Below, piece after piece: positions 10,432 to 21,191 of a DNA stretch of 64,000 bases. Position 1 is the stretch's first letter, and each line of letters starts with the position of its first letter. A program made the position numbers and the translations under genes. The DNA is from Candidatus Acidiferrales bacterium (GTDB lineage: Bacteria; Bacteroidota; Ignavibacteria; Kryptoniales; JAKASW01). Under the pieces are notes generated by a model. That model saw only the letters and a list, made by a program, of their open reading frames with translations, made no database searches and had not been told where the DNA came from. The DNA lies in contig DATJAY010000012.1 in the NCBI GenBank assembly GCA_035515795.1, positions 212,532-276,531 on the forward strand, in the 5' to 3' direction.

Positions 10432-10546
10432 ACTGAATAGGGTAAGTATGAAAAAGATGAATTCAAAACAGGTTTTTAACAATGCGTCCCGCGAGTCGGG
10501 GCTCACAAATATTTCTAACAAACAAACAAACCTTAGGAGGTTTACA

Positions 10547-11044
10547 ATGAAAAAGTTAATGTTAGTTGCGGCGCTGGTTCTCGTATTCGCGGGAATGTCT
10601 TTTGCGCAGGATCATGCAAGTAGTACGGCGACAATCAACGCCAATATTCAAAAAGGATTGACCATTTCTGTGTCCAACGCGATCCTCGATTTGGGAAACC
10701 TTGTTGCGGGCACGACCCCGGCCGCCGTCAGCCCTCTTAGCGGCACGGTTCCGGCTTTCACTGTAACAGGAGATGGCGGACACGTGGTAAACGTTTCATA
10801 TGATGCAACGGTTACTCTGAACGGACCGAGTAGTGCAACGATGACCTTCAATTCGGATTTCAAGGGTGATGCGTCAGGTACACAAGGGAGCGCTGGTGCA
10901 GTTGGCGCGACAGTTACTTTGAGTGGTGCTTCTCCCGCTACTGGCAACTACTATTTCTGGCTTGGCGGCAATGTCGGTTCGATTGACCCCGCTCAGGCTC
11001 CGGGAAGTTACACTGGCACTTTCCACGTTTCAGTAAATTATTAA
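10547..11044 (+). CDS. Secreted DUF4402 protein, putative fibre subunit
   Basis: Small exported protein of 165 residues. A clear Sec signal peptide (MKKLMLVAALVLVFAGMSFAQ) precedes one DUF4402-type beta-sandwich domain, rich in Gly/Ser/Thr and ending in YYFWLGGNVG ... SYTGTFHVSVNY. Start chosen because TAGGAGG lies at 10534-10540, 6 bases before this ATG, and the signal peptide begins exactly here. DUF4402 proteins are often found beside chaperone-usher genes, as here, which suggests a pilin-like structural role; that role is inferred. A strong terminator follows, so it is probably transcribed more than the genes behind it, as expected for a major subunit. Confidence 0.85.
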   Translation: MKKLMLVAALVLVFAGMSFAQDHASSTATINANIQKGLTISVSNAILDLGNLVAGTTPAAVSPLSGTVPAFTVTGDGGHVVNVSYDATVTLNGPSSATMTFNSDFKGDASGTQGSAGAVGATVTLSGASPATGNYYFWLGGNVGSIDPAQAPGSYTGTFHVSVNY

Positions 11045-11100
11045 TTTAGATCGACGGTGCCTCCAGTGGTACGTCGTATCGTAAATATTGTAGGGACGCA

Positions 11101-11135
11101 AGAAGGCTTAGCAGTAGTGCTGAGCCTTCTTTTTT
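11101..11135 (+). terminator. Rho-independent terminator after first DUF4402 gene
   Basis: A 13-bp stem (11101-11113 with 11118-11130, one G-T wobble), a 4-base loop and a run of six T to 11135. It separates the first subunit gene from the chaperone-usher genes. Confidence 0.9.
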
Positions 11136-11187
11136 CTCGTCAAGTTTCCGCTGATGTTTTATGTCTTGATATGTTGAAACATGAAGG

Positions 11188-12108
11188 TTGAGTGAAATGA
11201 ACCGAATGAGTTATAGGTTAGGATTTGTTTTCGGAACACTTCTCGTTGCCTATCGGGCAAGTGCGCAAAATCCTTCGATAACGTTGACCCGCAACCTGTC
11301 CTTTGGCACCAATATTACAGGCACCGCAACAATAGCGTACAACAGTGCCAACGCTGCGGTATTTGCAGTTCAGTTTCCTAACTATACTGGAGCACCTACC
11401 GCCTCATTCACATTCATTCTGCCGGCTGATTTGACGGATGGTTACGGTGATAACTTACCGATTTCCTTTGCAGCGAATTCTGCCGCGTATCACGTTAATG
11501 TAAACAGCACGACTGGAGCAACTACGTTTAACCCAAATAACGGTCTGGACGGGAATTTGGGTACCGCTGCTCACATCGATTACTTCTGGCTCGGAGGAAC
11601 TATTACGCCAGGGAACAACTACACGGCGGCATCTTACATGGGCACAATAACTGTCCAGGTAACTGTCACGGTCGGCACGCAACAATACACGGCAAGTCAG
11701 ATCATTAATGTTACGGCATCGCTCTCGGGTAATGTTTCACTTTCAGCAAGCGGCACGCTCAACTTCAGCCCAATCGTTGCGGGCACAACCCCACCTTCAC
11801 TTGGTGCTCAGGCCGTCGGTGCCCCGACATTTACTGCAACTGGTTTTAGAAACCGGAGCACTGTGTCATTCCCCGCTACAGCGACTTTGAACGACGGTAA
11901 TGGCCACACGCTGACCTTCACAGCGAGTTTATACGGTTCAAGCACGAATAATCAAGCCGGGTCACATGCGATTACCTCGGGTTCGACCTTGGGCAGCACA
12001 ACCGGCGGGACCTTTTATTTCTGGCTCGGCGGTTCTCTGGGTTCGGTCCCAATAGGGCAGGTGGCCGGAACATATAGTGGTACATTTGCGATAAGGATGA
12101 CTTATTGA
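11188..12108 (+). CDS. Secreted tandem DUF4402-like protein
   Basis: Exported protein of 306 residues with two beta-sandwich modules (about 25-160 and 170-306). The second closely resembles the single-domain protein at 10547: both have LNFSPIVAGTTPP-like and FYFWLGGSLG motifs and end in a YSGTFAIRMTY strand. The start is ATG with a following Met at codon 4; the signal peptide ends near ...YRASAQ. It probably serves as a second or tip subunit of the same fibre. No catalytic motif is visible. It is 44 bases from the chaperone gene. Confidence 0.75.
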   Translation: MSEMNRMSYRLGFVFGTLLVAYRASAQNPSITLTRNLSFGTNITGTATIAYNSANAAVFAVQFPNYTGAPTASFTFILPADLTDGYGDNLPISFAANSAAYHVNVNSTTGATTFNPNNGLDGNLGTAAHIDYFWLGGTITPGNNYTAASYMGTITVQVTVTVGTQQYTASQIINVTASLSGNVSLSASGTLNFSPIVAGTTPPSLGAQAVGAPTFTATGFRNRSTVSFPATATLNDGNGHTLTFTASLYGSSTNNQAGSHAITSGSTLGSTTGGTFYFWLGGSLGSVPIGQVAGTYSGTFAIRMTY

Positions 12109-12152
12109 AGAAATGTCATGCAAGTTTCCATTCATTAGATTAAATTGATAGC

Positions 12153-12974
12153 ATGAAAAAAATCTTAACCTTCGCGATAGTTTTGCTGGTTACCTCGTTT
12201 GTCAAGGCACAAGTGATTGTTGCACCGACGATCTTATTCATGAGCGACCAGTCCAGATTCGGAACGTTTGTGGTGATGAATCGATCGAACACACCTCAGG
12301 AGATTTCCATAACATTCAAGTTTGGATTCCCTGAATCTGATTCATCCGGAAATATCAGGATGCAATACGATGACAGTTCCATGGCAGACAAGCATTCATG
12401 CCAGCCATGGATCAAAGGGTTTCCGCAGAAGTTCGTCGTTAATCCCGGCCAGCAGCAAGTTGTCAGACTGGTCGTCGCCCCGCCGCCAGGAATCCAGGAT
12501 GGAGAGTATTGGACAAGGTTGGTAACAAGTTCAACTCCTCAGGCAAAGGTAATCGACACGGTAAGGACCGGAATTACAGCTAACATTACCTTTGTTCTCG
12601 AACAGGTCACAACCATTATTTACAGAAGGGGAAACGTTTCAACAAGTGTCAGTCTACCCGACATTGAAATTAAGCAGGACACAGCCTCGATAAATTTGCT
12701 TGCTCGTGTGACGAAAGGAGGGAATTCTCCTTTTTTTGGAAAAATCTCTGGCGAGGTTCAGGACAAGGCCGGGAACAAATTATACGATGAAGAAGAGGTC
12801 ATCGCAGTTTATCGGGACGACATGGTTTTTAAATTTGCAGTGCCTCTTTCCAAGCTGCCGCAGGGTATGTACACTGCCGCTATCAAGCTGTCATCGGAAA
12901 GAACCGATATTTCGCAGGATGACCTTTTAAAAACCGCGGCAGTGGAAAAAACCATAAAATTTTCAGTCCAGTAG
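12153..12974 (+). CDS. PapD-like periplasmic chaperone
   Basis: Exported protein of 273 residues whose N-terminal half matches a pilus-assembly-chaperone immunoglobulin fold: strand VIVAPTILFMSD, SRFGTFVVMNRSNTPQEISITF, then a basic and proline-rich stretch (VNPGQQQVVRLVVAPPPG) like the F1-G1 region of PapD proteins. Signal peptide MKKILTFAIVLLVTSFVKAQ. The C-terminal half is a second beta domain. It is expected to hold DUF4402 subunits in the periplasm and deliver them to the usher-like protein downstream. The assignment rests on fold-like pattern and neighbours rather than strong motifs. Confidence 0.65.
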   Translation: MKKILTFAIVLLVTSFVKAQVIVAPTILFMSDQSRFGTFVVMNRSNTPQEISITFKFGFPESDSSGNIRMQYDDSSMADKHSCQPWIKGFPQKFVVNPGQQQVVRLVVAPPPGIQDGEYWTRLVTSSTPQAKVIDTVRTGITANITFVLEQVTTIIYRRGNVSTSVSLPDIEIKQDTASINLLARVTKGGNSPFFGKISGEVQDKAGNKLYDEEEVIAVYRDDMVFKFAVPLSKLPQGMYTAAIKLSSERTDISQDDLLKTAAVEKTIKFSVQ

Positions 12975-13013
12975 AAATTATGTTTAACTCAGAATCAATA
13001 ATCATCTATTTAA

Positions 13014-13196
13014 ATTTTTGAAAACCTTAGAGCGGGACAAAATATCTGTACAAAAGCTTCGTGGATATGGATAATTGCAGCGAGCCTTCTCATTGTCGGG
13101 AAAGCGGGGGGACAAACAAACTTCGAGCAGTCTCAATCACAGGAAATCTATCTCTCTTTCAATTATAACGGACTGGTAAACACCGTAATCACTGCG
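13014..13196 (+). other. In-frame signal-peptide region of the usher gene lacking a normal start
   Basis: The reading frame of the usher-like gene is open upstream to a TAA at 13011. This stretch encodes a good signal-peptide pattern (KASWIWIIAASLLIVGKAGGQ) followed by ordinary mature sequence, but no ATG, GTG or TTG is in frame. A TTG at 13018 in another frame gives MKTLERDKISVQK, a plausible basic n-region, and would join this frame by a one-base shift near the AAAA at 13052-13055. Either the start codon is unusual or one base is missing. Confidence 0.55.
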
Positions 13197-16067
13197 GTGT
13201 ATCAGGACGATTCGATCTATATTCCTATCGGGGCAATTTTCAAAGAACTTGAAATTGATAGGACAATCAGCCTTCGAGATTCCACAATTAAAGGATTCTT
13301 TGTCAGACAAAACGATTTATATGAAATAAATTTTGCAAGACATATTGCACGCCTGAACAGGAGAACAATAAAGTTCGACAGTAGCCAAGTAATCATCGGC
13401 CATTTGGACTATTATGTTTTGCCATCCCTCCTCAACAAGATTTTTAGCTTAGACTTTTCTGTCGACATGAGTTCGTTGGCGCTTTCGCTTACGACGGAAC
13501 AAGAGCTTCCGATCGTTACTGAATACCAGAGAGAAGCGCGGAGGAATTATCTCGTTACTACACCGCAGGCGTCATTCATACAGGCACCCCTTGCCTATCC
13601 CCGCCATCGTTCACTATTAAATGGAGGGGTAATGGACTATTCGCTTACAGGCTTCGCTGGAATGGGACAATCGGCTTATAACTATGATTTTACCGGCGGG
13701 GGAGAAATTCTCGGCGGAGAAGCCGAAGGTACAATCTTCGGAAATTTTTCGGACAGGACCTCCAAAATTTATTCTAGTGACATTAGCTGGAAATACGTTT
13801 TTGATTCGACCAAGTACATCACTTATGCGGGCCTGGGCAATCTCTATTCGAATGGCTTGACACAGTATGGATTCCGCGGCGTTCAGCTTTCGAACGAACC
13901 GGTTTCTATAAGGACAATTTTCGGCAAATACGTCATCGATGCAAAAACAAACCCAAATTGGGACGTGGAGCTTTATCTTAATGGTCAACTTGTCGGATAT
14001 TCGAGAGCCGATGCGGACGGCAACGCGCATTTTTCGATACCTCTCGTCTACGGCACTTCATTTGTGCAGCTCAAATATTACGGACCGAGCGGAGAGGTGA
14101 TTGAATCCGACCGCAGACTTCAAATACCATTCACATTCCTACCGACAGGGCAAATTACATATACGGTCGGCGGCGGCAAGCTTAACAATACGGACTATAA
14201 CTTTATTTCAGGCGATGTTGCAGCGGGAATTTCCGACTGGATGACGGATAAGATTGGTTTGGACTATGTTGATGATCCGATTTTCGCAAAACCTCTCCTG
14301 TACAATTCGCTTTCGTTGAGAGTTGGCACCGAATACATGATAAGCCTTGACGCTGCGCCGTCTGCCTATTATCGCTCTACTTTTGACGCGCTCTATGCTT
14401 CACAAACGGCGTTCGATGTAGAGTATACTCGGTATCGGAATAATCTGCTTTACAATCCGAGCGAAAAGCTGCAGGACGCCCAGGCAGATGTTTTTATCCC
14501 GGTCATTTTCCCGATCGGTTCGTTTAACCTTAGAGCCGCTGCAATCGGGCAGGAATATGTAAATGGACAAAGGGCTTACAGCTATTCCTCCTACATAAGC
14601 TCGAGTGCCGGACAGTTCAACGCATCGTTGGGCTATCTTTTATCGGTTCTCAATTATGGCGGAGGGGTCATAAGAAGTTATGGATTGACTGCCAACGTTT
14701 TGTACTCGTTGATATTCCAGGAGGGAGCATTCGATTTTCTGAACGGATCACTCCTGGATCTAACCATGAGATACGGAGTTCTCAAGAATTCTCTCGACGA
14801 TATAAGGTTAGAGTTTTCAAAGAATGTCCAGCAATATGTGAGAGTCTCCGCCGCAGTTGAGAGAGACTTCGTGAATAAATTCACCACGTTTAATTTACAG
14901 GTAGTAGCGGATTTACCCTTCACTCGTTCGACAAGCAACGCTCAGATTCAGAACGGCAAGTCATGGTTCAGTGAAAATGTTTCTGGCTCGATTGGTTATG
15001 ACAGCCGATATCGCCATTTTGTCTTCAACGATCTCGGATGGGTTGGGCATTCAGCCGCTTCCATGAGGATGTACGTGGATAACAACAACGACGGCAAGTA
15101 TGACGCAGGCGACGAGGTCATCGATGGCACAGTAACTTTGAGGCAGGCCGTGTCGTCTGAAATCTCGAGTGATGGCATTCTAAGGGAATGGAATCTTCTG
15201 CCTTATACACAGTACAGTGCAGATATAGACATTAGCTCAATCAAAAACCCTTTGTTGATTCCAAAACAAAAATCATTTTCGTTCGTCACAGATCCTAATT
15301 CCTATAAGTCCATCGATATACCGTTCTTCGCAGGAGGAATTGTCGATGGCACCGTATTGAAAATCTCCGGCGAGACCGCGACGGCGATCCCGGGTTTAAC
15401 TCTCGAAATCAAATCTGTCGGTTCTGATTTCCAGAAAGCTATTTCGATTTTCGGTGACGGTAGTTTCTATTATATGGGCCTGCCCCCCGGAAAATATGAA
15501 GCCTATGTCGACTCGAGCCAGCTCTCTATGCTAGGGTTGGACGCCGATCCTGCTATTTTGAAGTTTGAGGTCAAGCCGACGAAGAATGGAGACTACGTTG
15601 AAGGTTTGAAGATTTTGTTGCATGACAAAAAGTCGCAGACCACGGGAGAACTAATTGAGAGGTTTCCTGCAGGTGAGGCGACCAAATGGATTGTTTACAA
15701 AGAAAGATCCGCGATCACCGAAGGCAAGTTTAGAATACAACTTGGCGCTTTCTCCACGCGTAAACGAGCCGAAAAATTTGCGGTGAATTTGAGACAGAGA
15801 ACCGGACAGCGGTTAGACGTTTCTCTAAGAAGAAATTCAAATTTGTATGTGGTTCAGTCTGAACCTATTAGCAGAAAAGAAGATGCCGTGGATAGACTTA
15901 TTAAGTTCTTGGACAGGTTCCAGTTCGAGGACGCCTTCATGACATACGAAGGAGGTGACCCGATCAAGTATCTTTACTCGATCCAAATAGCGGTAACCGT
16001 ATACGCATTCAAGATTCTCAGGAGTTTATCAGCTCTTCATGGGGAATCCTTTCATATTCAAAGGTAA
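13197..16067 (+). CDS. Usher-like outer-membrane protein with C-terminal SPOR domain
   Basis: 956 residues from the first conventional start (GTG); the true protein probably begins about 60 codons earlier. The N-terminal part (1-130) resembles a periplasmic usher domain. A long aromatic and glycine-rich beta-barrel region (about 150-600) contains a usher-like segment, VELYLNGQLVGYSRADADG then IPLVYGTSFVQLKYYGPSGE, near 260-300. A calcium-type loop DNNNDGKYDAGDE near 625-637 and a CarboxypepD-like beta domain (about 700-810) follow. A SPOR-type peptidoglycan-binding domain (FRIQLGAFSTRKRAEKFAVNL) lies near 845-915. I know of no standard usher with a SPOR module. The last 40 residues may be frame-shifted. 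Usher function is inferred from context. Confidence 0.65.
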   Translation: MYQDDSIYIPIGAIFKELEIDRTISLRDSTIKGFFVRQNDLYEINFARHIARLNRRTIKFDSSQVIIGHLDYYVLPSLLNKIFSLDFSVDMSSLALSLTTEQELPIVTEYQREARRNYLVTTPQASFIQAPLAYPRHRSLLNGGVMDYSLTGFAGMGQSAYNYDFTGGGEILGGEAEGTIFGNFSDRTSKIYSSDISWKYVFDSTKYITYAGLGNLYSNGLTQYGFRGVQLSNEPVSIRTIFGKYVIDAKTNPNWDVELYLNGQLVGYSRADADGNAHFSIPLVYGTSFVQLKYYGPSGEVIESDRRLQIPFTFLPTGQITYTVGGGKLNNTDYNFISGDVAAGISDWMTDKIGLDYVDDPIFAKPLLYNSLSLRVGTEYMISLDAAPSAYYRSTFDALYASQTAFDVEYTRYRNNLLYNPSEKLQDAQADVFIPVIFPIGSFNLRAAAIGQEYVNGQRAYSYSSYISSSAGQFNASLGYLLSVLNYGGGVIRSYGLTANVLYSLIFQEGAFDFLNGSLLDLTMRYGVLKNSLDDIRLEFSKNVQQYVRVSAAVERDFVNKFTTFNLQVVADLPFTRSTSNAQIQNGKSWFSENVSGSIGYDSRYRHFVFNDLGWVGHSAASMRMYVDNNNDGKYDAGDEVIDGTVTLRQAVSSEISSDGILREWNLLPYTQYSADIDISSIKNPLLIPKQKSFSFVTDPNSYKSIDIPFFAGGIVDGTVLKISGETATAIPGLTLEIKSVGSDFQKAISIFGDGSFYYMGLPPGKYEAYVDSSQLSMLGLDADPAILKFEVKPTKNGDYVEGLKILLHDKKSQTTGELIERFPAGEATKWIVYKERSAITEGKFRIQLGAFSTRKRAEKFAVNLRQRTGQRLDVSLRRNSNLYVVQSEPISRKEDAVDRLIKFLDRFQFEDAFMTYEGGDPIKYLYSIQIAVTVYAFKILRSLSALHGESFHIQR

Positions 16068-16218
16068 TTATTACCGATGAACCCAAGGTAATCTTTAGCA
16101 AGAAAAAACCACCAAGCCTTGTAACTATCAATAAATCAAGTTGTTATGCAACACGATAGAGTTGTCTTGATTCCACAGATTCTTGGCATTGCCTTCGCAA
16201 GATTAAGAGCAGAAGGCA

Positions 16219-16578
16219 ATGAAAAGAAAATTGAACATATCGCTCCTCCTCCCGGTGATCGGGTTGCTCGTGTGGACGTCAAATTCACAGGCTCAACAGG
16301 TGGCGACCGCAACTGCAAGAGTAACCCTCACGGTAATTCCCGCGGCGGGGATTAACTTTACTCAGACAAATTCCACAAAAACATCTTCCTCGGTAAACCA
16401 ATCCAATGGCAGTGGAATTACTTTGCATACAACCAGCAACGTGGCCGTCATGATGAACTCTTCCAGCGGCAAAAAGATGTTGAATGACAACCACGTCGGG
16501 CAGGGAGTTACAAAAACCATTACTTCAAAAGAACTCAACGACGTTTCAAAAGTTGAAATAATATACCTCGGAAGCTAA
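16219..16578 (+). CDS. Small secreted protein, possible minor fibre subunit
   Basis: 119 residues with a signal peptide (MKRKLNISLLLPVIGLLVW... ending near SQAQ) and a Thr/Ser/Asn-rich mature part beginning ATATARVTLTVIPAAGINF, similar in style to the first strand of the DUF4402 proteins upstream. AGAAGG just precedes the ATG. It closes the fibre locus and is probably a short subunit or terminator of polymerisation; function is unknown and based on neighbours only. Confidence 0.6.
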   Translation: MKRKLNISLLLPVIGLLVWTSNSQAQQVATATARVTLTVIPAAGINFTQTNSTKTSSSVNQSNGSGITLHTTSNVAVMMNSSSGKKMLNDNHVGQGVTKTITSKELNDVSKVEIIYLGS

Positions 16579-16873: not shown

Positions 16874-17347
16874 GTGGCGAATTTTACAATAACAGCAGAT
16901 TTCTACAGACTGTTTGAGACCGTGAAAATTCCGTTCGTTGTGACCGATTGCGATCTTAGCTTGGTCTATGCAAACCAGTTTGCGCACGAAGCGCTTCCGA
17001 TGACACTAGAGATCGGAAAACGCCTCAACATAGAAGAGTTCTTGCAGGCTGAAGACTCGTCTGCATTCGATGCCGTTGTCGATGAGTGTAAAAAGCAGGG
17101 GGAGGGGATCGGAACTCTTAAGCAAAGGGATGTCGACAAATACTTCAAGGTGAAGGCGTATTATCTCAGAGGTCCCGATAGCGAGATAGTATTTCATTTC
17201 GACGATGTCTCTCAAGTAAGGGTTCTCGAAACGCAATTTTATGAGCATCTCGTCGATCTGTACAACCAATTGGAAACCAAGGAGCGCGAGATCTCAACCC
17301 TCAAGTCTAAGGTGCTTCAATCTAAAGAGATGAGCCGTAAGATTTGA
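16874..17347 (+). CDS. PAS-domain protein with C-terminal coiled coil
   Basis: 157 residues. One PAS fold (about 10-120: FETVKIPFVVTDCDLSLVYANQFAHEAL, later YFKVKAYYLRG ... VFHFDDVSQ) is followed by a heptad-like coiled coil (LETQFYEHLVDLYNQLETKEREISTLKSKVLQ, written here in parts). There is no histidine kinase, GGDEF or DNA-binding domain, so it is a stand-alone sensor or partner protein. GTG start with GAGAGAGG upstream (16862-16869). It converges with the nirK operon and may sense redox or small ligands; the ligand is unknown. Confidence 0.7.
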   Translation: MANFTITADFYRLFETVKIPFVVTDCDLSLVYANQFAHEALPMTLEIGKRLNIEEFLQAEDSSAFDAVVDECKKQGEGIGTLKQRDVDKYFKVKAYYLRGPDSEIVFHFDDVSQVRVLETQFYEHLVDLYNQLETKEREISTLKSKVLQSKEMSRKI

Positions 17348-17394: not shown

Positions 17395-18258
17395 TCAAAC
17401 CGTCTGCAACTGTTCGAGGCTCCCCTTGAAAATCTTATATCTATCTTCATGCGGCAGGGTACTATTAATCAAAGGATAGAGAATGAGTTCTTCTTTCTTA
17501 TTGTGAGTCGCCAGCTTGCCGATCAATTGGTTGAGTATGCCGTGAATTGTCTTCACGTCAGTCTTGTCGGCAGGAGTGGAAATGCAGGACACAATCTCGC
17601 GATGTTCTGAAATCATTACGCGCACCGGTCTCATTTGCTCTGGGGTCGCATGGTCTCCGAAAGAAGGGAACAACAAAGTTTCTTCAAGTTCGATATGCTT
17701 CAGAAGCTGTGCCCTGGTTTTTGAGTAAAGCCTTGTTGCGCTTCTTTGCTCGGGGGCCGCCCGCAGCGACGATATGTTCAAATCAATCCTTCTATGGTCG
17801 AGTTCAAATAGAGACCAAACATCCGATTTCTTTCTCTCTTTTTCCATGTGATGGACTTTTTCAATTAGAGAATCCAATTCCTGTTCTGAAAGTTTCTTTC
17901 CCAACCTGGCAATTAAAATGTTTTCCTCTTCGCTGAAATGTTTGCCTAGTAGAACCAAAAAATCATCGATCTGTGATCTCAATAATTGAACGTCGCCATG
18001 GCCGAATGTCGCTTCAATCATGTCGAGACCGTGTTTTATTTCTTTGTGTTCTCGTATCATGTCGTTTACAAATTTCAGATCGTCGTCGGCGGCGTACAGA
18101 GTGAGTTCTTCAGCTTCGGCGTGAGGCACGAGATATTCCTCACAATAGGACAGTAGAAGTGATGCGTCGGTCGGGGTCTCTTTTGCTCGGTCGGCTAGTG
18201 ATTTTATTGCGCCGATAAGCTGACTGTGGTGTGTATGTAGTTTTTCGAGCGAGCTCAT
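17395..18258 (-). CDS. Tandem hemerythrin (HHE) domain protein
   Basis: 287 residues with two hemerythrin-like four-helix domains. First: H near 9-10 (LHTHHSQL), PHAEAEE, IREHKEIKHG, GKHFSEEE. Second: ELDHRRID, LKHIELEETLLFP, ISEHREIV, THNKKEELILYP. His and Glu positions fit di-iron sites able to bind O2 or NO. As the last gene of the nirK operon it may bind NO made by the reductase or repair nitrosylated centres, as proposed for RIC/YtfE-type proteins; that role is inferred from context. It begins 20 bases after the SCO gene. Confidence 0.85.
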   Translation of the reverse strand: MSSLEKLHTHHSQLIGAIKSLADRAKETPTDASLLLSYCEEYLVPHAEAEELTLYAADDDLKFVNDMIREHKEIKHGLDMIEATFGHGDVQLLRSQIDDFLVLLGKHFSEEENILIARLGKKLSEQELDSLIEKVHHMEKERKKSDVWSLFELDHRRIDLNISSLRAAPEQRSATRLYSKTRAQLLKHIELEETLLFPSFGDHATPEQMRPVRVMISEHREIVSCISTPADKTDVKTIHGILNQLIGKLATHNKKEELILYPLINSTLPHEDRYKIFKGSLEQLQTV

Positions 18259-18277
18259 TTTCTTTCCTTTTTTTTGC

Positions 18278-18949
18278 TTAGTTTTGCTCTGAACATGACC
18301 TTACAGCGTCCACGATGTCGTCTATGGACCGATTCAAACCGAAATGCTTAAAAACGATCTCCCCTTGCTTGTTGAGAACGGTTATTTGGCTCGAATGGAA
18401 AAAATCTCCGTTGGATTTCATCTTGAATTCGACTCCGAGAACTTCTGCGAGCGAACGAATGTCGTCTTCTTTGCCGGATAGAAGCTCCCAATCTCTGCCG
18501 AGCCGTTGATTCTTGGCAAGTGTCTTTAGAGCCTGAGGCGAATCTCTCTTTGGATCGAAGGAAACGAGAACGAATCCGGCCTTCCCTTTGAGATCATCCC
18601 GCAGGCTCGATTCGATTCTTTTCATGTCGTTGATCGTCAAGGGACAGGCGTACGTGCAGTGAGAATAGAACATTGCCACGATTTCAACTTTCCCCTCTAG
18701 ATCGGCTATGTTGATCGAATTGCCATCTTGATTTTCCCAAGTTGAACCGAGTTGATAGACGGAATTTCCGGTCACCGGGAGAGAATCGGCATTCTCTACA
18801 CAACACATCCTATCATTTCTTCGGTCTGCCGATCGGGCAGACTGGTTGTTTTTGTATTTTGATTCGGCTTTCTTTTGAGACAGGACCGCCGATTCAAGTG
18901 AAATGGTTAAGACTGCGGCCGTCAATAAAGAGAAGAAGATTGTTTTCAT
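18278..18949 (-). CDS. SCO1/SenC-family copper chaperone
   Basis: 223 residues with an N-terminal signal peptide and a thioredoxin-like fold. The copper ligands of the SCO family are all present: Cys98 and Cys102 in FYSHCTYACP, and His185 in GDFFHSSQ. SCO proteins deliver copper to respiratory oxidases and related cupro-enzymes; here the neighbour is the copper nitrite reductase, so it probably matures NirK. Its ATG overlaps the stop of the upstream gene by 4 bases, indicating translational coupling. Confidence 0.92.
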   Translation of the reverse strand: MKTIFFSLLTAAVLTISLESAVLSQKKAESKYKNNQSARSADRRNDRMCCVENADSLPVTGNSVYQLGSTWENQDGNSINIADLEGKVEIVAMFYSHCTYACPLTINDMKRIESSLRDDLKGKAGFVLVSFDPKRDSPQALKTLAKNQRLGRDWELLSGKEDDIRSLAEVLGVEFKMKSNGDFFHSSQITVLNKQGEIVFKHFGLNRSIDDIVDAVRSCSEQN

Positions 18950-19716
18950 TTTGTGATCCTCGAGTTTTTGTGGTAGGTCGTATTACACCTTCGTGCCGAA
19001 ATGCACTTCGGTGTGCAGGCACATCTAAATCCTAGGTTGAGAAGGCAGTAGCTTGCTCTCAATGCGCCGCGAAACGAGTATCGGAGGAACGTCTGATAGT
19101 CTTTCGGATTATTTACATTCACGGAGGACCCGCCGCAACTTAGGATTGAAGGAGAGTCGACTTCTTCCGCCTGGCTTCCGTCGAGTAGGATGTCATTGAA
19201 ATCTTCCGTCCACTCCCGAATATTTTGCATCGATAAAGAAGTTTCCATCCGATTAGCCATCATCCTGACGACATATTCCCATTCGTCCGTCGTAGGGAGT
19301 CTTTTGTGTGCCCATTTGCAGTAAGCCTGCGCTGCGAACCACGATACATCGGTTACAGGGTCAAGTGACCGGATATTTTTTCCTAGTTTTAAATCCGCAG
19401 CCCAATTCCTCAAATAATTTTTGTCCGCGAAGATGGGTCTAACTCTGGACTTCCTCCATTGTGGGTTTACCTTGACGAAATAGAGAAACTCGGCGTTCGT
19501 GACTTGATGCACATCAAGGCAAAAGGACTTCACATGAGCTTTGGCTTTCTCGCCGGCCTCTTTGGAAAAAGGAACATAACTGCCTCCCGGGACAAAAATC
19601 ATTTTCTCGTTCGGCATTTTGAATGAAGAGGTCTGGCACATTCCCATCGTTGCGAAGAACAGAAAGGTAAGCACGATTTCCGCTGAAGATGTTTTCGACT
19701 GCAGTGGAATTCTCAT
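18946..19716 (-). CDS. Formylglycine-generating-enzyme-like (SUMF1/EgtB/PvdO) protein
   Basis: 256 residues, exported (signal peptide ending near MGMCQ). The SUMF1 fold is recognisable: MIFVPGGSYVPF, VHQVTNAEFLYFV, DVSWFAAQAYCKWAHKRLPTTDEWEYVVR, and near the C-terminus FRGALRAS ... LGFRCACTP. Known relatives with this fold act as formylglycine-generating enzymes or non-heme/copper enzymes. Similar genes are found next to nirK in other bacteria, where they have been suspected to help assemble the reductase; that is not established. Its ATG overlaps the nirK stop by one base (TGATG arrangement). Confidence 0.85.
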   Translation of the reverse strand: MRIPLQSKTSSAEIVLTFLFFATMGMCQTSSFKMPNEKMIFVPGGSYVPFSKEAGEKAKAHVKSFCLDVHQVTNAEFLYFVKVNPQWRKSRVRPIFADKNYLRNWAADLKLGKNIRSLDPVTDVSWFAAQAYCKWAHKRLPTTDEWEYVVRMMANRMETSLSMQNIREWTEDFNDILLDGSQAEEVDSPSILSCGGSSVNVNNPKDYQTFLRYSFRGALRASYCLLNLGFRCACTPKCISARRCNTTYHKNSRITK

Positions 19717-21191
19717 CAGTTATCTCCGTTTAAAGAAATCATTTTTGCTGACCTGATCTGTTCGATTTCCTTTTGAGCTACGGGACCCATCTTATTTCCG
19801 AAGCTGCTTCGTACGAACGTCAACACTTTTGCGATTTGTTGATCATCGAGAGGTTGAGGTGGCATGACATTGTTGTATGCCTTCCCATTGACCATGATGG
19901 TTCCCGAATGGCCGTGGAGCACGAAGTCGATAGCCGTCTTCTGATTATTTTTCAGAAAGTCTGATCCTGCAAGCGGAGGGAATACGTTCGGGATCCCTTG
20001 CCCGTTTGACTGATGGCATGCTATGCAGGTTCGATCAAAAATTTGCTGTCCGGTCTCTTCCGCTGATACCTGCTGCGTGCTAACATTGGTTTGGATTTGG
20101 TCGTCAGCGGATTCGTCGCTCGTGTTATTAACGGAAGGCTGGCCGAGGTAGATTTCATCCGCCTGTTTTCCCGAATAAACGAGTTCGTTGCCTTTTCCTG
20201 TCACAACCAATTGTCCGACGGCTCCTTTGTTGAACGAGCGAAAAACCGAATGATCCACGATGCTGTATGTCCCCGGTACTTCAGTTTTGAATTCGACTAT
20301 GGCCGCACCGCCCGCCGGGATCAAGGTCGTCTGGATATCATGCTCGGTTACTGTCGACCCGCCTTCACCATAAACTTTGTCGAACACTTCGCCAATGATG
20401 TGAAATGATGAGATGAGATTTGGTCCGATGTTCCCCACGAATATTCTTATGATCTGGCCGGTTTCGGCGGTCAGAGCATTTTTCCCGGTAAGAGATCCGA
20501 CTGATCCGTTGAACACAACATATGATGGACGTTCATCTAGTGCTTTTTGGAGATCGAACTGCTGCAAGCCGGAGTCGCCAAACTCGCCTGTCGTGTAGAA
20601 CTCGCTTTGCATTATGTAGAACTCTTTGTCAACTTGCGGAAAACCTTCTTTCGGCTGAACGAGAATCAATCCGTACATGCCGTTGGCGATGTGCATCGGT
20701 ACAGGCGGAGTTGCGCAATGATATACGTACAATCCCGGATGCAGGGCTTTGAATGAAAAGACTGATGTGTGACCGGGAGGTGTGACCGATGAAGCCGCGC
20801 CGCCCCCGGGACCGATCACTGCATGCAAGTCGATGTTGTGTGCCATCATGTCGGACGGATCATTGCTGAGGTGAATTTCCACGAGATCGCCTTCGCGTAC
20901 GCGAATCATCGGGCCGGGCACGGTTCCGTCGAAAGTCCAGAATTGATATTGCACGCCGTCCGCAAGTCTCCCGATTTTCTCTTTTGTGAAAAGGTGAACC
21001 ACGACCTTTGATGGATGGTTACGAATTATCGGGGGTGGGACGTTCGGTGCGGACGTCAGCACTGCATCCTCCGTGCCTTCCATTTCATTCGAATAACCCG
21101 TCTCGCACCCGGAGTTGACAACGGCAAGAAGAATTATGGGTAGAAATGTCCCCAGGAAAAGAATCGTTCGGATTTCCGTTCTCACGTTCAT
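19716..21191 (-). CDS. nirK: Copper nitrite reductase fused to cytochrome c
   Basis: Reduces nitrite to NO in the periplasm. The N-terminus ends in a lipobox (VVNSGC, Cys29), so it is probably a lipoprotein. Two cupredoxin domains carry all copper ligands: type 1 His118, Cys159, His167, Met172; type 2 His123, His158, His314. Catalytic Asp121 and His264 are present. A C-terminal class I cytochrome c domain has CIACH (Cys389, Cys392, His393) and a candidate Met443 ligand. Such heme-tethered NirK enzymes have an internal electron donor. First gene of an operon with SUMF1-like, SCO and hemerythrin genes. No NO reductase is in the window. Confidence 0.96.
   Translation of the reverse strand: MNVRTEIRTILFLGTFLPIILLAVVNSGCETGYSNEMEGTEDAVLTSAPNVPPPIIRNHPSKVVVHLFTKEKIGRLADGVQYQFWTFDGTVPGPMIRVREGDLVEIHLSNDPSDMMAHNIDLHAVIGPGGGAASSVTPPGHTSVFSFKALHPGLYVYHCATPPVPMHIANGMYGLILVQPKEGFPQVDKEFYIMQSEFYTTGEFGDSGLQQFDLQKALDERPSYVVFNGSVGSLTGKNALTAETGQIIRIFVGNIGPNLISSFHIIGEVFDKVYGEGGSTVTEHDIQTTLIPAGGAAIVEFKTEVPGTYSIVDHSVFRSFNKGAVGQLVVTGKGNELVYSGKQADEIYLGQPSVNNTSDESADDQIQTNVSTQQVSAEETGQQIFDRTCIACHQSNGQGIPNVFPPLAGSDFLKNNQKTAIDFVLHGHSGTIMVNGKAYNNVMPPQPLDDQQIAKVLTFVRSSFGNKMGPVAQKEIEQIRSAKMISLNGDN

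Follow-up and report, generated by a model that had tools for sequence, protein, structure and literature searches.

The outer-membrane ushers FimD and PapC end after their C-terminal domains and are not known to carry a wall-binding tail. A 2015 paper lists chaperone-usher systems from no bacteria other than proteobacteria, Cyanobacteria and Deinococcus-Thermus: the classical and alternative ones from beta- and gamma-proteobacteria, the archaic ones from all three phyla (PMC4654587). Here we describe a locus in a 64,000-nucleotide stretch of DNA from the uncultivated Candidatus Acidiferrales bacterium (the window; GenBank assembly GCA_035515795.1, contig DATJAY010000012.1, positions 212,532 to 276,531), which GTDB places in the Ignavibacteria, phylum Bacteroidota. 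We consider it probable that this locus encodes a chaperone-usher pilus of a divergent branch present in Bacteroidota and other bacteria of the Fibrobacteres-Chlorobi-Bacteroidetes (FCB) group, and that its usher is anchored to the cell wall. An initial annotation, made from the sequence of the window, proposed two exported DUF4402 proteins, a chaperone, an usher-like barrel with a SPOR domain and a small exported protein; we find all five genes in place with their coordinates confirmed, collinear and in one direction. The reading of this locus as a surface-fibre assembly system is supported by the predicted fold of the usher, the predicted folds of the pilins, and the conserved gene order.

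The usher, its pilins and the conserved locus

The genes of the locus, together with the PAS-like gene that accompanies it in the genus, are as follows:

10547..11044, plus strand: SubA, DUF4402 pilin gene
11197..12108, plus strand: SubB, two-domain DUF4402 pilin gene
12153..12974, plus strand: putative PapD-like periplasmic chaperone (PapD_N E 0.0075; with sufficient flank, nearly always next to the usher)
13044..16067, plus strand: usher, 1007 aa, with signal peptide, N-terminal domain, plugged barrel, two C-terminal beta domains and SPOR (AlphaFold, Foldseek, SPOR profile)
16219..16578, plus strand: small exported protein (conserved after the usher; alignment, hhalign)
16874..17347, plus strand: PAS-like protein (synteny in the genus; PAS_8 E 0.068)

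The product of 13044..16067 is, by its predicted fold, an outer-membrane usher, despite a silent PF00577 profile. A template-free AlphaFold model, made with the window usher and 23 relatives, begins with an N-terminal domain and six barrel strands, which are followed by a plug-like insertion (residues 266-343), approximately 18-20 more strands, a pair of C-terminal beta domains and, at residues 873-945, a SPOR fold. Comparison of this model with the PDB using Foldseek returned FimD or PapC as all of the top 18 matches (E 3e-29 to 1e-14), with the match following this set, at 2.5e-8, being unrelated; identity to FimD and PapC is ~11-14% over aligned columns. The initial annotation, whose usher call was based on a motif, hinged on a plugged usher-type barrel, and the predicted structure contains one. 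All three of the segments singled out in that annotation (VELYLNGQLVG, IPLVYGTSF and KYYGPSGE) are located within the plug, and the motif is conserved in the usher family. The parts of the usher map to the window as follows:

13140..13502, plus strand: N-terminal periplasmic domain (model residues 10-130; secondary structure)
13617..15077, plus strand: beta-barrel including the plug (model residues 169-655; Foldseek)
13908..14141, plus strand: plug, six short strands between barrel strands 6 and 7 (model residues 266-343)
15117..15626, plus strand: two C-terminal beta domains, similar to usher C-terminal domains (model; weak CarboxypepD_reg signal)
15720..15947, plus strand: complete SPOR domain (PF05036; model residues 873-945)
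15966..16064, plus strand: second SPOR domain, start only, truncated (tblastn with the tails of relatives)

In five related usher genes (L058, L059, L020, L092 and L124), long N-terminal frames of 260-590 aa lie ahead of the core and may be part of the protein; those of L058 and L092 have weak Ig-like matches, and the others are unassigned.

Both pilin genes encode proteins that match DUF4402 (PF14352) above the Pfam cut-off of 25.2, SubA at 42.5 bits and SubB (open frame 11188-12108) at 42.7 bits over two stretches, and 19 of the 20 aligned homologues of SubA match DUF4402 alone. SubA contains a signal peptide, a single DUF4402 domain, and an N-terminal extension of alternating residues (SSTATINANI) that resembles a donor strand; in the alignment its chain does not continue past the last conserved strand, a trait of pilins lacking a G strand. 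A similar extension precedes the second domain of SubB. The first domain of SubB has no such extension, and in the AlphaFold model of this protein (predicted local distance difference test score, pLDDT, 90.6) the strand between the two domains (residues 139-153) directly follows the last strand of domain 1, in a hairpin-like arrangement, and pairs with that domain. The first Foldseek matches of SubB are the CfaB-CfaB (3f84) and CfaE-CfaB (3f83) fusions, then CsuE, with FimH, CooA and EcpA further down the list. The global TM-scores of these matches are low (0.2-0.4), which we attribute to the two domains being compared in a different mutual orientation, and the argument for a pilin fold is carried by the E-values and the consistency of the matches rather than by these scores.

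From the model of SubB and the chain ends in the alignment, the DUF4402 proteins are predicted to be pilins with an incomplete immunoglobulin (Ig) fold, whose best matches are donor-strand-complemented pilins. The initial annotation would have lost its basis with DUF4402 proteins lacking a donor strand or an incomplete Ig fold; what we find instead are predicted pilin folds and the SubA extension. SubA is presumed to be the main shaft subunit, and SubB, with two domains of which the first lacks an extension, is presumed to be the tip. Some chaperone-usher systems are generally known to make capsule-like coats, and the number of pilin genes differs from locus to locus in this family, so that the usher might export the DUF4402 proteins as a surface coat or as short fibrillae, with no extended pilus. 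We regard this as unlikely, as SubA, with its extension and single domain, and the tip-like SubB resemble a shaft and a tip. The same genome also encodes two orphan DUF4402 proteins, L036:5411-6505 (C10) and L037:6267-6893 (C28), located away from the sole usher found; no chaperone or usher gene was seen beside either of them, and they may be extra pilins for the same machine.

Profile matches are suggestive that 12153-12974 encodes a very divergent PapD-like periplasmic chaperone. Its PapD_N match (E 0.0075) is below the Pfam cut-off, and 3 of 14 relatives contain PapD_N matches reaching 2.2e-4; with few exceptions, the gene adjoins the usher wherever the flanking sequence examined was long enough. 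Profile searches of the PDB with the alignments of the chaperone and of the usher gave no useful match for either, because divergence is too high. The small exported protein contains a signal peptide, a pilin-like N-terminal extension, and a short body ending in Y-L-G-S, without a pilin body, and its hhalign match to the pilins (93%) covers the N-terminal 48 columns only. This protein is a candidate for the base of the fibre or for a terminator subunit. An RTC_insert match in the same protein (E 0.0027, below the cut-off) was taken as chance.

The order of these genes is conserved beyond chance. The usher is present in 12 of the 13 genomes searched from the genus of the window, and its locus runs from the pilin(s) through chaperone, usher and small protein to PAS, with exceptions being contig ends or single missing genes. 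Paralogous loci in four genomes of the genus repeat pilin, chaperone and usher, as do distant loci in records of Balneolaceae, Cloacimonadota, Ignavibacteria and Neomarinimicrobiota; no pilin was detected in the Ignavibacteria pair of these distant usher loci. The comparison of gene order proposed at the outset shows pilins, chaperone and usher in the same sequence across the genus, in the class and in distant FCB loci. Using a profile of the usher core, we identified members of the family in 48 of 197 genomes of the class and in 89 of 396 genomes of the phylum, some of the phylum matches being partial and weak. The search for relatives in genomes succeeded with an alignment of close relatives as the query, and a scan of genome contigs with the window usher alone found none.

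The periplasmic tail of the usher

The window usher ends in a SPOR domain (PF05036; E 3.5e-9, 37.3 bits against a cut-off of 21), which in the model has the beta-alpha-beta-beta-alpha-beta fold. Most ushers of the same genus contain approximately three tandem SPOR-like repeats, of which Pfam by itself calls two in L039. Both the window usher and L046 end inside the second SPOR domain, and a tblastn search with the tails of relatives found no remnant of a third downstream of the window usher. In a low-coverage genome, the usher frame L047:5553-8327 stops within the first SPOR domain; this truncation may be genuine or may stem from the assembly.

Outside this genus the tail is of many kinds. SPOR arrays are found in the large family f39 and in single members of f54, f44 and f36, with borderline cases in L135 (exactly at the cut-off) and in L110 and L056 (just below it). 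OmpA tails occur in members of four groups (L057; L080/L081; L100/L101; L102/L106; with L081 and L101 assigned by similarity to their tested partners), and a tail of SPOR plus LysM in one (L053). TPR tails are present in L054, L088, part of f39 and f38, shorter tails often being below the Pfam cut-off, and L056 combines TPR (YbgF/CpoB-like) with its weak SPOR match. Of the 91 ushers classified, 42 have a SPOR, OmpA or LysM tail, 10 have TPR alone, 3 have an unassigned tail, and 36 have none. On a tree built from the usher core, i.e., with the tail excluded, tail type changes at least 19 times, and SPOR and TPR tails split close relatives (L118 from L120, and L119 or L121 from L111). Judged from these sequences, the family has repeatedly exchanged its periplasmic tail between SPOR arrays, OmpA, SPOR plus LysM, TPR and no tail. 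The SPOR addition, which the initial annotation called unusual, is so in comparison with described ushers, but this understated the case, since such a fusion is common in this usher family. In L115, L116, L127 and L128, the SPOR parts of the tail are preceded or separated by long stretches of acidic sequence rich in Thr and Pro, the longest of several hundred residues, as if bridging a wide periplasm.

The SPOR, OmpA and LysM families all bind peptidoglycan, and the tail of an usher is periplasmic. The exchange of such modules at one site suggests that the usher pore is anchored to the cell wall by its tail. The wall tether proposed in the initial annotation thus gains from the other peptidoglycan-binding modules present at the same place in relatives, with wall binding itself being predicted. 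A SPOR tail could also serve to place the usher at the division site or the new pole and bear no load, because SPOR domains recognise denuded glycan, which is enriched at the septum (PMC6895207). SPOR is, in addition, the commonest type of usher tail. We find such septal placement doubtful: OmpA or LysM occupies this position in relatives, and by established knowledge both bind peptidoglycan with no septal preference; wall anchoring is favoured over pure septal targeting because peptidoglycan binding is the trait that SPOR, OmpA and LysM share. It is also conceivable, but quite improbable in our judgment, that these tails are general tethers between outer membrane and wall of the kind carried by many large barrels in these bacteria, acting in envelope stability and not in the fibre; SPOR, OmpA and TPR are common envelope domains, but the tails recur and switch type while the core remains constant, in counts that come from one usher family only.

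With a wall-anchored usher, assembly would proceed as follows. The chaperone would escort the pilins to the usher, which would export them through its barrel by donor-strand exchange. The periplasmic tail of the usher would bind peptidoglycan, here by SPOR on denuded glycan and in relatives by OmpA or SPOR plus LysM, and the pore so anchored would pass a pulling force on the fibre to the sacculus.

Several results weigh against a wall-anchored chaperone-usher pilus. The profile searches proposed for the usher returned SPOR (PF05036) and failed to return the usher profile: PF00577 was undetected in the window usher and anywhere in its genome, and was found in 1 of 19 members of the usher family (E 0.0035); no sequence profile labels the window protein as an usher. 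The model of the usher is moderate (mean pLDDT 77.8; predicted template modelling score, pTM, 0.55), and lower in the plug (blocks mostly 56-79). The SPOR array of the window usher is shorter than those of its relatives. Approximately 40% of the classified ushers are tail-less and ten have TPR alone, so the family does not depend on wall binding. Finally, the deep nodes of the core tree are weak, and a parsimony count does not separate gain of a tail from loss.

Start codon, terminator and flanking genes

Three features are likely to affect expression of this locus:

10535..10540, plus strand: strong Shine-Dalgarno (SD) sequence AGGAGG ahead of SubA (read directly)
11100..11137, plus strand: intrinsic terminator after SubA, 14-pair stem and T run (-26.6 kcal/mol, z -5.8)
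13032..13046, plus strand: SD-like GCGGGA and presumed AUC start of the usher (reading; alignment with 11 same-genus copies)

The open frame of the usher extends from 13014, and its sole plausible start is the ATC at 13044-13046; the first ATG, GTG or TTG in this frame, the GTG at 13197, already belongs to the mature N-terminal domain. Our alignment of 12 copies showed no ATG, GTG or TTG before the usher signal peptide in the window and in most copies from the genus. In 10 of these 12 (the window and copies within L038-L047) an ATC follows an SD-like motif, GGGAG or similar, at the same site, and five of the ATC-bearing copies contain an in-frame stop one codon 5′ of it. L043, L044 and L047 have no usual start between the ATC and the mature protein. 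Elsewhere, an ATG lies four codons upstream in L039, a TTG is present in L046, and L048 is without usual starts; the paralogous usher loci L049-L052 have an ATG at the start, and the chaperone genes beside the ushers start with ATG. We rejected a frameshift as the reason why the window usher lacks a usual start, since in several relatives the in-frame stop lies one codon ahead of the ATC and there is no further start that could be used. In f39 (L108-L131), GTG is the start codon of the usher gene at 20 of 21 loci, and the chaperones upstream of it start with ATG; we did not take this as a second case of a weak start, because the GTG overlaps the chaperone stop in several loci and coupling may explain it.

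Translation of the usher thus seems to begin at a conserved AUC. Starts of this kind are described for infC, which begins with ATT in Escherichia coli and with ATC in Streptomyces; non-canonical starts are repressed by IF3 (PMC5472188). The missing usual start, together with the truncated second SPOR domain, could also mean that the window copy of the usher is decaying, which we think highly improbable: its frame is open for ~1000 codons, it is 55-64% identical to the copies of the genus, the start feature is conserved in relatives, and L046 likewise ends in the second SPOR domain.

Six relatives likewise have a terminator downstream of their first pilin gene, at ~+81 to +90; the candidates seen after other pilin genes were all weak. 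The terminator after SubA and the non-canonical usher start together suggest a graded output from the locus, with much SubA, less of the remaining genes, and little usher. The strong ribosome site and the terminator would favour SubA, whose high share the terminator is presumed to set; the other genes would be expressed by readthrough, and the weak AUC start would keep the usher scarce relative to the pilins. We lean, by a small degree, towards a fuller reading, i.e., that of a separate FCB branch of chaperone-usher systems with an exchangeable C-terminal peptidoglycan anchor (SPOR arrays, OmpA, SPOR plus LysM, perhaps TPR adaptors) and, in this genus, an AUC start that throttles the usher.

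On the minus strand, 17395-21191 contains genes for a hemerythrin-domain protein and an SCO1-like protein, an unassigned open reading frame, and a gene for a multicopper oxidase joined to a cytochrome c domain in a nitrite-reductase-like arrangement.

Comparison with described chaperone-usher systems

The family described here would extend chaperone-usher pili, in a form missed by sequence profiles, to Bacteroidota and further FCB phyla, and DUF4402 would gain a likely function, that of a pilin. That usher tails have repeatedly been fused to wall-binding modules opens the question of whether, and why, a pilus pore needs to be anchored to the wall, and the AUC start, if true, would be a rare case of conserved non-AUG initiation outside the infC type. 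Our literature search, which left subscription journals largely outside its reach, found no paper naming DUF4402 and no precedent for the fusion of an usher to SPOR, to OmpA or to a further peptidoglycan binder; given this reach, these negatives are weak evidence of novelty.

With the alternative pili (CFA/I, CS1, ECP), the locus shares the predicted pilin fold, through the CfaB, CfaE, CooA and EcpA matches of SubB, a two-domain tip-like subunit, and a putative chaperone and an usher in one operon. It differs from them in having no recognisable sequence identity, in being found in other phyla, and in its DUF4402 pilins and predicted wall-binding usher tail. With the archaic pili (Csu, CupE) it shares a spread beyond the classical groups, and CsuE is among the matches of SubB, but the pilins of this locus were not detected as spore-coat-U type. 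We judge that the locus belongs to the chaperone-usher kind, and claim membership in neither the alternative nor the archaic clade. With FimD and PapC, the usher shares the whole predicted core fold, i.e., the N-terminal domain, plugged barrel and C-terminal domains.

Two further systems resemble the tail. The P-usher (Ruer et al. 2008, cited in PMC4793230) is reportedly a component of an usher pathway fused to an extra, secretion translocator domain; it thus shares an extra fused domain with the ushers described here, but that domain is by description a translocator, and here it is a predicted peptidoglycan-binding module. TsaP of type IV pili (PMC3956165, cited in PMC7616799) is said to be a peptidoglycan-binding protein associated with a surface-fibre machine, but it is a separate protein of an unrelated machine, whereas the predicted wall-binding module of this locus is fused to the pore itself.

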